Source: a virus
DNA: 45,110 nucleotides
Virus record (IMG/VR): IMGVR_UViG_3300032562_000054
Span: 1 to 45,110 of that record
Direction: 5' to 3' (one strand)
In this document: one piece after another, positions 12,998 through 18,112 of the stretch
How the letters are laid out: each line of letters starts with the position of its first letter
How positions within the stretch are numbered: the first letter of the stretch is position 1
Translations under genes and position numbers: made by a program
The notes under the pieces: model-generated
What the model was told of the DNA's origin: nothing
The model's input: only the letters and a program-made list of their open reading frames with translations
The model's database searches: none

Positions 12998-14257
12998 GTG
13001 TCCTCAGGACAATTTGAAACCATCGCCCTGGCATCCATCACGATTGCCCGAGCGGAGCGAATCCGAAAAGAACTTGACGGAGCTGCAGTGGCGGCTCTTG
13101 CAGAAAGCATTAGTCGAATCGGCCTCCTGCATCCGCCAGTTGTCACACGTGAACGGGTACTCGTATCGGGTGAAAATCGAGTCGAAGCCTGTCGATCTCT
13201 CGGCTGGACCTCCATACCGATCCAGTATTCAGATACGCTGGACCCCCGAGAGCTTCTAGCCATCGAACTCGAAGAGAACGTCAAACGCTCGGACTTGTCC
13301 TGGCAAGACCAGTGCGACGCACTCCGCCGCTTCCACGAGTTGCAACAAGAAATCCATGAGGAGTGGTCCGTTGACCAAACAGCAGCCGCCGTCGGACTTG
13401 CTCCGCGAACTGTCTACGACCAGCTTAACGTCGCCAAAGCTATCGCTGACGGAGATCAGAGCATTGTTCTCGCCCCAAAGTATTCTGTGGCAAAGAACTT
13501 GGTTGCTCGCAAGACTGAACGTGCTGCGGCAGATGAACTCTCTTCTCTGCTCGGAGACCTCGCCGATCCGGAGCCCACGGAGGCTGCACCCAGTCCTATC
13601 TTCAACTCTGATTTCAACGAGTGGGCAAGCTCTTATACTGGGCGACCCTTCAATCTACTTCACTGCGATTTCCCCTACGGGATTGATGCACAGGAGTTCC
13701 ACCAGACCGCGAACGCAAGCCTAGGAGATTACGATGACTCTTTCGAGGTTTATGTCTCGTTGTTGGACACGCTGGAAGCAAACCGTGATCGCCTCCTTGG
13801 CGAGTCAGCACACATTATCTTCTGGTTTTCCATGCGTCATTACACTTACACTCTACAACGACTCTCAGCCATGTTCCGTGTCGATCCATTCCCCCTCATC
13901 TGGCACAAGTCCGACAACAAAGGTACGCTGCCTGATCCGGCTCGAGGTCCCAGGCGAGTCTACGAAGTGGCGTTCTTTTGCTCTCACGGAGACAGAAAGA
14001 TTATCAGCCCTGTCTCTAATACATTCTCTGGCCCAACGATCCGAACAGTAGGACACATGTCAGAAAAGTCCACTGACATGCTTGCCCACTTCATGAGGAT
14101 GTGCGTCGATGCTAACACGAGGCTTCTTGATCCTACGTGCGGTAGTGCTTCTGCCCTTCGTGCTGCCGATAGTCTTGGGGCTGGTTATGTACTTGGGCTG
14201 GAAAGAAACCCCGAGTTCGCCGCAGATGCGCAAAGAGCTTGGAGGGCTTCTCGATGA
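12998..14257 (+). CDS. ParB-like N-terminal domain fused to DNA methyltransferase
   Basis: A 419-residue fusion, GTG start with TTGGAGAGAG upstream. Residues 5-95 are a ParB/sulfiredoxin-type domain (ELDGAAVAALAESISRIGLL, then VSGENRVEACRSLG). Residues 120-150 resemble a helix-turn-helix (SVDQTAAAVGLAPRTVYDQL). The C-terminal half is an amino-methyltransferase with catalytic motif DFPYG (224-228) in place of DPPY and a SAM-binding-like LLDPTCGSASALRAA near residue 385; catalytic motif before SAM motif is the beta-class order. It probably methylates phage DNA (N6-adenine or N4-cytosine) and may protect against restriction. The specificity cannot be read from the sequence. Confidence 0.85.
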   Translation: MSSGQFETIALASITIARAERIRKELDGAAVAALAESISRIGLLHPPVVTRERVLVSGENRVEACRSLGWTSIPIQYSDTLDPRELLAIELEENVKRSDLSWQDQCDALRRFHELQQEIHEEWSVDQTAAAVGLAPRTVYDQLNVAKAIADGDQSIVLAPKYSVAKNLVARKTERAAADELSSLLGDLADPEPTEAAPSPIFNSDFNEWASSYTGRPFNLLHCDFPYGIDAQEFHQTANASLGDYDDSFEVYVSLLDTLEANRDRLLGESAHIIFWFSMRHYTYTLQRLSAMFRVDPFPLIWHKSDNKGTLPDPARGPRRVYEVAFFCSHGDRKIISPVSNTFSGPTIRTVGHMSEKSTDMLAHFMRMCVDANTRLLDPTCGSASALRAADSLGAGYVLGLERNPEFAADAQRAWRASR

Positions 14258-14460
14258 GTAAGGCTATTGTAGTAGCCCGGTTCACTTACGGTTTTACCAT
14301 CGCGCTGCCCGAAGACAACTGGGCCGAATACCTACGCAAAGAGAGCCGCCGCTTGAACCGCTTCGGCCTGGTTCAGTTGACTTTCTTCGACTGGGTTAAC
14401 GAGCGCCCTGGGTTCTCCCGTGTTCCCATGATTCGGGAGCGCCGATATGTCCGGGTATAA
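14254..14460 (+). CDS. Small hypothetical protein, 68 residues
   Basis: ATG 14254 overlaps the methyltransferase stop (ATGA) with GGAGGG 7-12 bases upstream. It begins MSKAIVVARFTYGFTIALPE, is basic (ERRYVRV at the end) and strand-rich. No family recognised. It overlaps the next gene by 14 bases. Confidence 0.75.
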   Translation: MSKAIVVARFTYGFTIALPEDNWAEYLRKESRRLNRFGLVQLTFFDWVNERPGFSRVPMIRERRYVRV

Positions 14461-15478
14461 AATCGCCCTTGTAGGAGAATGCTATGGCGAAGAAGACGCG
14501 CAGTACAACAAGTCCTTTCTGGGAAAGTCCGGCGCGCAACTTAACGAGTTGCTTGGCGATGCTGGACTTAGCCGAGCCGAGTGCTACCTCACCTCAGTTT
14601 TCAAAGAGCGTCCTAGAGGTGATGATCCAGAGAACTTTTTCTGCAAGCGAACTGAAGGTTCTGTTGATCTATCCAGGAAAGCGCTTCGAAAAGGTCTCTA
14701 TCTTCGATCCGAATACACTTGGCACATTGATGCGTTACTTGATGAGCTTACACAACTCCGACCTAATCTGGTTGTTGTCTTGGGATCAGTATCCGCATGG
14801 GCAATTATGGGCTCCGCCAGTATTTCCAAGATCCGAGGAACCTGCACTACTTCAGATCTACTTCCAGGCCAAAAGCTCCTTGCCACCTTCTCACCTCGCG
14901 AGGTACTGCGACAGTATGATATTCGCTATGTCACCATTCTCGATCTCCAAAAAGCCTTCAGAGAGGCTGCAACCCCAGAGTTGATCCGCCCGCTGCGCGA
15001 GATCTGGATGGACCCTAACCTTGAAGACATGGAGCGTTTCCTTGAAGAGCACCTCGCCCCGAGTCCGCTCATCGGCTTCGACATTGAAACCGCCTTTAAG
15101 CAAATTACTTGCATCGGTTTCGCCAGCTCAGCGTCCCGGGCTATTGTGGTTCCTTTCCTTGACTACCGAAAGCCCGGCGGACATTACTGGAGCACGTTAG
15201 AAGATGAGCTTAAAGCTTGGGACTGGGTGCGCCGGGCACTGGGTACTGCTGGAGAAAAAGTCGGGCAGAATACTTTGTATGATATCCAGTACCTCTGGCG
15301 GCTCTACGGGATGGCGCCTCGAAACTACAAACATGATACTATGTTACTGCACCACAGCCTCCTTCCCGAAGCCCAGAAGTCCCTCGGGTTCCTCGGAAGT
15401 GTCTACACCAACGAGATAGCCTGGAAGCCCAACCGCCCTCGAGGCAAACACCAAGAGAAGCCGGAGGATCAAGAATGA
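14447..15478 (+). CDS. Uracil-DNA-glycosylase-like domain fused to 3'-5' exonuclease (Exo I and II)
   Basis: A 343-residue protein. Residues 1-175 show a uracil-DNA glycosylase superfamily outline: KIALVGECYGEEDAQ, SFLGKSGAQLNELLGDAGL, CYLTSVFKERP, LVVVLGSVSAWAIMG, and ATFSPREVLR. The usual GEAPG is GECYG and the usual HP(S/A) is SP, so glycosylase activity may be lost. Residues 205-300 are a DnaQ/PolA-type proofreading exonuclease: Exo I GFDIET (D212, E214) and Exo II VGQNTLYDIQYLW (D279). Exo III is missing here and appears at the start of the next gene. UDG-like domains fused to family A polymerases are known in some phages such as SPO1. The stop overlaps the polymerase start (ATGA). Confidence 0.85.
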   Translation: MSGYKIALVGECYGEEDAQYNKSFLGKSGAQLNELLGDAGLSRAECYLTSVFKERPRGDDPENFFCKRTEGSVDLSRKALRKGLYLRSEYTWHIDALLDELTQLRPNLVVVLGSVSAWAIMGSASISKIRGTCTTSDLLPGQKLLATFSPREVLRQYDIRYVTILDLQKAFREAATPELIRPLREIWMDPNLEDMERFLEEHLAPSPLIGFDIETAFKQITCIGFASSASRAIVVPFLDYRKPGGHYWSTLEDELKAWDWVRRALGTAGEKVGQNTLYDIQYLWRLYGMAPRNYKHDTMLLHHSLLPEAQKSLGFLGSVYTNEIAWKPNRPRGKHQEKPEDQE

Positions 15479-16953
15479 TTATTTGGAGGAGCACGGATGA
15501 CGAGCCAAGTTCGCCCGCTCTTGCAGAGCAGGTCTACAACGGCCTTGATTGCTGCGTCACAGTCGAAGTGCTTGAAGCACTCCTGCCTAAGCTCACTGAG
15601 ATCACCGGCGCCACTTACGACTGGGCTTGCCGGCTTCAAGCGCCTATTCTTGAAATGGAACTCCGCGGCTGCCTCATCGACAAGCAGGCAATACATTCTG
15701 TATCGGCTCTCTACCGAGATCAAGCGGAACGGATACAGATTCAGCTTGATCAAATCCTCTCCGAAGGATTAGGAATAGATCCCATCAACCCTGGCTCATG
15801 GCAGCAGAAGAATGACCTCCTCTACAACCGACTCGGACTTCCCCACGTTCGCAAGCGTGGAAAGATTACTTCAGACCGGAGTGCTCTGGAGAAACTTTCC
15901 CTCTATTACCATGCAGAAACCATCTGCCGCCACATCATACTTCTGCAGGACCTGCGGAAGAAACTTGGGTTTCTTAAAACTCCCATTGGAGAAGACGGGA
16001 GGATGCGGACTAGCTTTAACATCGGCGGAACCGATACAGGGCGTCTGTCCTCTTACGCATCTGCGTTCTATGACGGAACCAACCTCCAAAACATAGCCCC
16101 GGAGATGCGGCGCATCTTCATCGCCGATCCCGGAATGAAGCTTGCCTACATCGACTTGGAACAAGCCGAGTCTCGTGCCGTCGGCGCGATCATCTGGAAC
16201 CTGTTCGGCGACCCAGCGTACTTAGACTTCTGCGAGTCGGGCGACCTCCACACCAACGTAGCCCGAATGACGTTCAAGCACCTGCCTTGGACTGACGATA
16301 TGAAGCGCAATAAGGAGATTGCCAGTGGCCGTTTCTACCGAGACCTTTCTTACCGGGATGCTTGTAAGCGCCTTGGCCATGGCAGTAACTACCACGGTCA
16401 GCCTCCGCAGATGGCAAAAGAAACTCGAATCCCTGTCGGACTGGTTACAGAGTTCCAGCGCGAGTACTTCGCCACGTTTCCTGGTATTCCCCGGTGGCAT
16501 GAGAGCGTCCGAAGACGTCTGCTCCGCGAGGGATTCATCACCACATTTATGGGTCGTAACCGCTGGTTCTTTGGGCGCCGCTGGGATAATCAAACTCTTA
16601 ATGCAGCGATCGCTTACGAGCCCCAATCCGCAATCGGAGACTACCTTAACCGCGGTATGTTCAGTGTGTGGGAGAGAGGCATCTGTCAGCTTCTCGTGCA
16701 AATCCACGACGCTATCTTAATCCAGTACCCGGAGGAACTTGAGGACGAAATCGTCCCGGCAGTGTGCAAGCTGCTCGAACACGAGGTTCCGCTGATGAAC
16801 GGGCGCAAGCTCGTTATTCCGACTGAGGCAGCCACTGGCTGGAATTGGGCATATAAGAGCGAGAAGAACCCAGATGGCATCGCCAAGTATAAAGGGACCG
16901 ACCAGCGCAAGCGAACCCCGCCGGTTGACTTCCTGGATCAACTCTTTTCTTGA
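15475..16953 (+). CDS. Family A DNA polymerase, catalytic chain carrying Exo III
   Basis: A 492-residue replicative polymerase. Residues 18-35 (QVYNGLDCCVTVEV, Y21 and D25) look like the Exo III motif missing from the previous protein. Polymerase motifs: motif A YIDLEQAESR (D227), motif B RDACKRLGHGSNY with His where E. coli Pol I has Phe762, and motif C VQIHDAIL with D412 followed by Ala413 in place of the usual Glu. ATG 15475 has GGAGG 7 bases upstream within the previous gene, so it is initiated independently, not made by frameshifting. The catalytic aspartates are intact, so it should be active; the missing glutamate of HDE is notable. Confidence 0.93.
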   Translation: MIIWRSTDDEPSSPALAEQVYNGLDCCVTVEVLEALLPKLTEITGATYDWACRLQAPILEMELRGCLIDKQAIHSVSALYRDQAERIQIQLDQILSEGLGIDPINPGSWQQKNDLLYNRLGLPHVRKRGKITSDRSALEKLSLYYHAETICRHIILLQDLRKKLGFLKTPIGEDGRMRTSFNIGGTDTGRLSSYASAFYDGTNLQNIAPEMRRIFIADPGMKLAYIDLEQAESRAVGAIIWNLFGDPAYLDFCESGDLHTNVARMTFKHLPWTDDMKRNKEIASGRFYRDLSYRDACKRLGHGSNYHGQPPQMAKETRIPVGLVTEFQREYFATFPGIPRWHESVRRRLLREGFITTFMGRNRWFFGRRWDNQTLNAAIAYEPQSAIGDYLNRGMFSVWERGICQLLVQIHDAILIQYPEELEDEIVPAVCKLLEHEVPLMNGRKLVIPTEAATGWNWAYKSEKNPDGIAKYKGTDQRKRTPPVDFLDQLFS

Positions 16954-18112
16954 GTACACTTCCGGGACTCAGTCCCCTGAAATCTTCCGCCGGTGGGCTG
17001 CTGCGAGCACCATCGCGGGAGCGCTTGAGCGCAAGGTGTGGCTGGTGGTGGGCAAACGCCAGCTCTTTCCTAATCTTTACGTCCTCGTAGCCGGAGGTCC
17101 GGGCATTGGCAAAACTGACAGTCTTCGTGAAGTCGTTAAATTCTGGAACCACTTGCCAGATTTGCACGTGGCTCCCAGCAGTGTATCACGCGCCTCACTT
17201 ACCGATTCCCTACACGAAGCTGTGCGCTCTGTGCTTCGGCCATCTGAGGGAACTTTCGCCAAATTCAATAGTCTACAAGTCTGCGCTGAAGAGTTCGGAA
17301 CATTTCTCTCAGCCTACGAAACCGAGTTCATGTCGACGCTCAATCACCTCTATGACTGCGTGGGCTACAAGGAGAAAAAGCGAAGCATGAAAGAAGCCAT
17401 TGTCATGCCCGAGCCTCAGCTCAACATGATCGCGGCCACAACCCCAGCCTGGCTTAGCACCACGCTTCCCGAGCATGCTTGGTCCGAGGGCTTTTCCTCG
17501 CGGCTGGTAATCATCCACTCAGCGGAAAGGATCAAGATTGACCTCTTCAAAGTTAAGCCAACTGATCAGCTTTTGGAGGATAACCTCATACACGATCTCC
17601 AGTCGATCCACCAGCTATGGGGTGCGTTTTCATTTTCGCCGGACGTTGTGGAGGCGTTCCAAGAGTGGTACTTTGCTGACTGTCCACCGATCCCTGAACA
17701 TCCTAAACTGGAGCATTACCTTCCGCGTCGTCACATACACTTCCTTAAGCTCTGCATCGTCCTCTCTGCTTCCAGGTCCGGAGACATGGTTATACGCATG
17801 GTTGATTATCAAGAGGCGATGAACATGCTGCTTGAGGCCGAGGCTCACATGCCGGATATCTTCAAGGCGATGAAGGGAACCTCAGACTCCAACATCATTG
17901 ACGAGACCTACGCATTCGTGTGGCAAGCTTATTCCAAAGATCAAAAGCCAGTTCCAGAGCACCGCATCCTTTACTTCATATCCCAGCGCGCACCCAGCTA
18001 CGGCGTTCAAAAGATCCTCGAAGTCATGACACAGAGTGGAATGCTTATCGTTGCGTCTGTAGGAGAAAGGGGGCGGAACACATTCAAGCCCGCCCCCAAA
18101 GGTTCCTACTGA
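16874..18112 (+). CDS. DUF3987-like ATPase (possible helicase/primase component)
   Basis: Up to 412 residues from ATG 16874; a TTG at 16925 would remove the first 17 residues and start at TSWINSFLEYTSG, where homologous proteins usually begin. Walker A is GGPGIGKT (K80), Walker B-like VCAEEFGTFL near residue 135, and a later GFSSRLVIIH segment resembles an arginine-finger/sensor region. The layout matches DUF3987-type proteins, which often sit with phage or plasmid replication genes and are thought to be primase-helicase related. It follows the polymerase with an 80-base overlap. No separate primase is recognised in this genome, so this protein may take part in priming or helicase loading. 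Confidence 0.75.
   Translation: MASPSIKGPTSASEPRRLTSWINSFLEYTSGTQSPEIFRRWAAASTIAGALERKVWLVVGKRQLFPNLYVLVAGGPGIGKTDSLREVVKFWNHLPDLHVAPSSVSRASLTDSLHEAVRSVLRPSEGTFAKFNSLQVCAEEFGTFLSAYETEFMSTLNHLYDCVGYKEKKRSMKEAIVMPEPQLNMIAATTPAWLSTTLPEHAWSEGFSSRLVIIHSAERIKIDLFKVKPTDQLLEDNLIHDLQSIHQLWGAFSFSPDVVEAFQEWYFADCPPIPEHPKLEHYLPRRHIHFLKLCIVLSASRSGDMVIRMVDYQEAMNMLLEAEAHMPDIFKAMKGTSDSNIIDETYAFVWQAYSKDQKPVPEHRILYFISQRAPSYGVQKILEVMTQSGMLIVASVGERGRNTFKPAPKGSY
18061..18097 (-). terminator. Terminator of the late minus-strand operon
   Basis: GGGGGCGG (18069-18076) pairs with CCGCCCCC (18090-18097). Read on the minus strand, the stem is followed by TTTCT. It lies inside the 3' end of the plus-strand gene, just past the last late gene. 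Confidence 0.6.

Follow-up and report, generated by a model that had tools for sequence, protein, structure and literature searches.

DNA polymerases of family A usually carry an exonuclease and a polymerase on the same polypeptide, although this arrangement is not strictly defining. It was not found in the virus described here, nor in the members of its clade that were recovered. The window, meaning the whole stretch of 45,110 nucleotides of viral DNA that was analyzed (IMG/VR record IMGVR_UViG_3300032562_000054), encodes two adjacent proteins, termed chain 1 and chain 2, and a complete DEDDy set of exonuclease motifs (Exo I DxE, Exo II Nx3D, and Exo III Yx3D) is spread over the two (Table 1). 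The question that this locus raises is whether a proofreading site is assembled from two polypeptides, or whether the separated motifs are to be explained in another way. The answer that emerges, by far the best explanation and very probably the correct one, is a two-subunit family-A replicative polymerase with a composite proofreading site.

The original prediction had placed Exo I (D212, E214) and Exo II (D279) in the first protein without an Exo III, had recognized Exo III (Y21, D25) at the beginning of the polymerase chain, and had regarded the polymerase gene as a separate chain with its own GGAGG and an ATGA overlap. All of these elements were located. Chain 1 contains no Exo III of its own, and past W326-K327 it continues for only ~15 poorly conserved residues. 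The opening of chain 2, QVYNGLDCCVTVEV, carries both Exo III residues. The residues of the polymerase itself, namely D227 (motif A), R294 and K298 (motif B), and H411-D412 (motif C), are conserved and all lie in chain 2. Just upstream of the split polymerase, a single ORF at 12998-14257 combines an N-terminal ParB domain with a C-terminal part resembling a DNA methyltransferase. A DUF3987/primase-like ORF (16874-18112) comes after the polymerase, and the start listed for it overlaps chain 2 at its 3′ end.

Table 1. Features of the split polymerase locus, in coordinates of the window.
Feature	Position	Strand	Remarks
Chain 1 ORF, 343 aa, ATG, frame 2	14447..15478	+	UDG-like domain, then exonuclease fold through Exo II plus next conserved segment
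UDG-like (family-4/UdgX-type) domain, chain-1 residues ~1-178	14447..14980	+	Pfam, profile matches
Exo I codons D212-I-E214 (D-I-E-T motif)	15080..15088	+	Chain 1
Exo II N275xxxD279	15269..15283	+	Chain 1
Chain-1 C-terminal tail past W326-K327, one side of cut	15428..15475	+	
GGAGG, ribosome-binding site for chain 2, 7 nt ahead of ATG	15463..15467	+	
ATGA start/stop overlap of chain 1 and chain 2	15475..15478	+	
Chain 2 ORF, 492 aa, ATG, frame 1: Exo III helix and family-A polymerase domain	15475..16953	+	
Chain-2 leader, 20 aa ahead of Exo III	15475..15534	+	
Exo III Y21-N-G-L-D25	15535..15549	+	Chain 2; Y21 at 15535, D25 at 15547
Family-A polymerase domain	15742..16848	+	Pfam PF00476, chain-2 residues 90-458

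The two chains can be traced to a single protein. Positions 480-788 of phrog_17, which is one DNA polymerase family in PHROG, match chain 1, and positions 809-1241 match chain 2. The chains cover this family in succession and so correspond to adjoining parts of a single ancestral protein. In Pfam, chain 1 matches UDG (2e-12, residues 5-157) and chain 2 matches DNA_pol_A (4e-31). When a profile of chain 1 was compared with the PDB, its C-terminal half matched the exonuclease part of Klenow (1d9d, E 2e-4), and family-4/UdgX uracil-DNA glycosylases (UDGs) were also matched (1vk2, 1ui0, and 6ioc). The Pfam and profile matches mean that the UDG-like domain previously proposed for one of the two chains is real as a fold. 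The chain-2 profile matched Taq, Bst, and Klenow among solved structures, and its match to phage G20c Pol I (7r0k) begins at residue 21, the Exo III tyrosine.

Relatives were gathered from IMG/VR in two sets. A chain-2 query gave 75 loci, and a chain-1 profile gave 549 matching stretches, the best 80 of which formed the second set. Where both parts were in view, the first set held 71 split pairs (window included) and the second 78 more. Some loci share a contig; the chain-1 types number 106 at 95% identity and 76 at 70%. No fused gene was found inside the clade among the ~148 further loci (the first set and the best 80 of 549), and in all of them the cut is at the same place. These loci include the cultured Caulobacter phage Kuura, in which the same split was found by tblastn in annotated phages: chain 1 is gp029 (“hypothetical protein”), the polymerase is gp026, and two small genes lie between them. 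Kuura is a cultured, plaque-forming podophage, and the words “split” and “uracil” are absent from its description (PMC9959647). In none of the clade relatives examined does the first protein have an Exo III. These loci indicate that the two-protein form is an old cut, fixed across a large lineage of environmental phages with small tails. A scan of genome contigs also encountered three split relatives (L164, L165, and L166), in MAGs that bear the names Terriglobia, Phycisphaerae, and Acidobacteria; these names need not be those of the hosts.

Across this clade, the exonuclease residues are retained almost without exception. Among chain-1 sequences, D212, E214, and N275 are each present in 146 of 146 and D279 in 145 of 146, the sole exception being a glutamate in L076. 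Among chain-2 sequences, Y21 and D25 are each present in 145 of 145. Mean column identity in representative alignments of the clade is 44–47%, and the columns of the UDG site are less constant than those of the exonuclease (E11 in 133, N50 in 135, and H149 in 139 of 146 chain-1 sequences). Retention of the catalytic residues against this background means that strong selection acts, across two genes, on the exonuclease site. The conservation of the motifs in ~148 other loci excludes chance. Covariation between the exonuclease part of chain 1 and residues 1-60 of chain 2 (23 of the top 200 pairs, compared to 11.3 expected) is enriched about twofold, a weak signal that is partly phylogenetic.

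The UDG-like domain has had a different fate. The clade has an Asn in its LTNV motif and a His in its HP motif, which are catalytic residues in UDG families; the window has S50 and S149 at these two positions. By its sequence, the domain in the window is probably not an active glycosylase, and the glycosylase site appears to be under weaker selection than the exonuclease site, with the weakest selection in the window. Where GEAPG is usual, the domain carries GEAWG, or GECYG in the case of the window, and it aligns with solved UDGs only from about UDG residue 34 on.

In four relatives (L014-L016 and L059), both genes share a reading frame and only one stop separates them, which allowed a structure to be modeled as one covalently joined chain. 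The model is of L014, with the stop read as Q, and used an alignment of 91 rows comprising the window and its relatives. It has a mean pLDDT of 91.8 and a pTM of 0.87, and pLDDT falls below 50 only at residues 328-336, which is exactly the cut, and in the last nine residues. The Exo III helix corresponds to residues 353-378. Residues 177-810 of the model superimpose on Klenow (1kfd) with a VIA Z of 30.4 and an rmsd of 3.1, the comparison with the Bst and M. smegmatis Pol I structures gives Z of 31-33, and the top Foldseek match is the Pol I structure 8oo6 (2.4e-27). The model thus predicts that both pieces together can make a normal Klenow exonuclease-polymerase fold; because the modeled chain is covalently joined, it is no proof that separate chains associate.

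The original prediction had proposed a search of relatives for an unsplit form, and such a form exists as a sister clade, recovered with the polymerase of Microcystis phage Mel-JY34 as the query. One-chain forms with the same domain order include those of Mel-JY34, ctMlz233, vir526, ctfzr933, and a Desulfofustis phage. The same order of UDG-like domain, 3′-5′ exonuclease, and family-A polymerase is known from PaBG-like jumbo phages (PMC7412058). The Exo III of the Mel-JY34 and ctMlz233 polymerases (YNGKD/YNCKD) is equivalent to the YNGLD of the window. The PaBG-like, Mel-JY34, and ctMlz233 proteins are single polypeptides, whereas in the clade of the window the cut separates Exo II from Exo III. 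In every split pair of that clade, chain 1 spans the conserved W-K after Exo II and then runs on for ~15 residues, often ending in TIKR(D/E)(D/E), while chain 2 has ~20 residues ahead of YNGLD, often M(K/R)IIxT..., which form a short strand in the L014 model. One-chain relatives have a shorter stretch, of ~16–25 residues, from W-K to the Exo III tyrosine, so the tail and the leader are additions of the split form.

The interval between the two genes is variable. From the chain-1 stop to the chain-2 start, it ranges from -8 to ~1.3 kb across the split loci. Gap genes are unrelated and differ by locus; 3 of the 10 gap ORFs tested encode an HNH_3 endonuclease (L052, L053, and L054), and others encode DUF7768, DUF1937, or a dNMP kinase. 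One gap ORF (L046 2087-2422), with relatives in L047, L052, and L077, belongs to a family of ~105–111 aa with no assigned function that lies between the polymerase genes in six loci. A third protein acting as a constant partner from the gap was considered and rejected, as each gap ORF family occurs in six loci at most and many loci have no gap.

Since the cut runs through the proofreading domain, one protein would have to lend a helix to complete the catalytic site of the other. In the proposed arrangement, chain 1 would supply the UDG-like domain and most of the 3′-5′ exonuclease fold, including Exo I and Exo II, and chain 2 would supply the last part of the exonuclease, namely the Exo III helix with Y21 and D25, followed by the polymerase. 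The exonuclease fold of chain 1 would be open, and the N-terminal helix of chain 2 would dock into it and complete a two-metal site formed by D212, E214, and D279 of chain 1 and Y21 and D25 of chain 2. The docked helix would also hold one subunit to the other, and the assembly would be a Klenow-like polymerase able to proofread. We infer that the subunits associate physically and that catalysis is composite. The earlier view that the proofreading site must form across two polypeptides, one of them with a UDG-like domain, is supported. The two-subunit polymerase is most likely obligate. It is rather unlikely that the split persists on account of its usefulness, with chain 1 serving as a detachable proofreading and UDG-like module and the exonuclease site existing only when both chains meet. 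If this were true, the amount of chain 1 available for each chain 2 would decide whether the phage runs its polymerase with or without proofreading.

Other readings of the locus give the exonuclease motifs a different role, or none. Chain 1 might be an independent nuclease or repair factor that finds its remaining ligand in itself or in a third protein, leaving the chain-2 Exo III helix with only a structural function. Chain 1 carries a UDG-like domain and could by itself function in repair, but this reading is very unlikely, because the alignment of relatives reveals no strictly conserved acidic residue in chain 1 beyond K327, the tyrosine and aspartate of chain 2 are invariant, and the same motifs occur in the same order in one-chain relatives. 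Alternatively, the split may have destroyed proofreading and left the exonuclease residues behind as leftovers. Splitting a domain is often inactivating, and some family-A polymerases, such as Taq and Bst, have lost their exonuclease residues. A dead relic of this kind is very unlikely indeed, given that all five catalytic positions are retained in practically all sequences, representing 76 chain-1 types at 70% identity, while other sites vary, those of the UDG among them.

It might also be supposed that the halves are joined after all, through programmed frameshifting, readthrough, a spliced intron, or a split intein. The overlap in the window and the lone in-frame stop in L014-L016 and L059 would allow this, and split inteins are known in a phage polymerase B (PMC6892783). 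Yet the three frame relations of chain 1 and chain 2 are equally common across loci (51/50/47), as expected at random, and gaps of up to ~1.3 kb contain genes. A programmed -1 frameshift was rejected for the additional reason that the overlap in the window has no slippery heptamer. Rfam detected no group I or group II introns in 19 gap loci and the window, and a split intein was rejected because the tail of ~15 aa and the leader of 20 aa are too short and, by inspection, have no His-Asn-Cys/Ser end. Taken together, the variable gap, random frames, and unrelated gap genes mean that frameshifting, introns, and inteins do not explain the split, and a joined chain is extremely unlikely. The small overlap of two frames could, finally, point to a sequencing or assembly error in the window, which the original prediction had named as a threat to the split. 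There is next to no chance of this. L010 and L011, the relatives nearest to the window, share its ATGA (-4) overlap at 58–64% protein identity (64% in chain 2), which excludes a sequencing error, and the clade is split throughout, in many independent loci.

The two-subunit polymerase probably originated through insertion of a homing endonuclease into a once single gene. The endonuclease would later have been lost or replaced, and in the window it would be gone, leaving genes that simply overlap. A tree of the polymerase part has one change between split and unsplit forms, on a branch without support and with some long unsplit rows. In the sister clade, L190 (679-3383) and L196 (3495-6166) are interrupted a short way upstream of Exo I, and inspection of the gap shows an HNH-like ORF there, while L192 (3402-6179), L193, and L198 (3486-6864) are interrupted in the palm. 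The HNH genes in some gaps and these other breaks suggest that the polymerase gene has been a repeated target of homing endonucleases, with fixation of one of the cuts, the one separating Exo II from Exo III. This origin is the least certain step, because few gaps contain HNH genes and the branch that implies a single origin has no support. Among distant UDG-exonuclease-polymerase genes, that of Vibrio phage VS-ABTNL-3 (L007 3956-7090) is in two ORFs cut in the polymerase domain, and that of ctLwi270 (L005 1727-4364) is likewise in two ORFs.

Divided phage polymerases have been described before. In the T4-like Aeromonas phages 25 and 44RR, the polymerase is split into 43A and 43B, which a homing-endonuclease gene separates in one case, and the products co-purify and are active; a homing-endonuclease insertion that divides an enzyme without abolishing its function is documented for T4-like phages (PMC2988022). 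The likeness to the window lies in a phage replicative polymerase encoded by two genes, and the difference is that 43A/43B belongs to family B. The OM43 phages MEP401 and MEP402 have a family-A polymerase in two ORFs with a small ORF between, and the split is found in most of their group; unlike in the window, the cut is inside the polymerase domain, and annotation places the exonuclease domain on the first protein (PMC10580990). The PolB of jumbo phage MIJ3 is encoded by two genes with an HNH endonuclease between them, as in some loci of the window's clade, but intein pieces are present on its halves, which are presumably spliced into one protein, whereas the clade of the window has no such pieces (PMC6892783). 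Split phage polymerases are known, but in the open-access literature searched no description was found of a cut at this position, between Exo II and Exo III and through the catalytic site, or of its clade-wide fixation.

The cut passes between the second and third metal-binding motifs throughout a lineage, and is not a single accident. It also means that annotation misses half of the enzyme, as in Kuura, where chain 1 is labeled a hypothetical protein. The locus would represent a proofreading site that is naturally in two pieces, and the polymerase chain should be unable to proofread by itself. Both the value of proofreading to the phage and the reassembly of the split site should be directly testable in the cultured phage Kuura.
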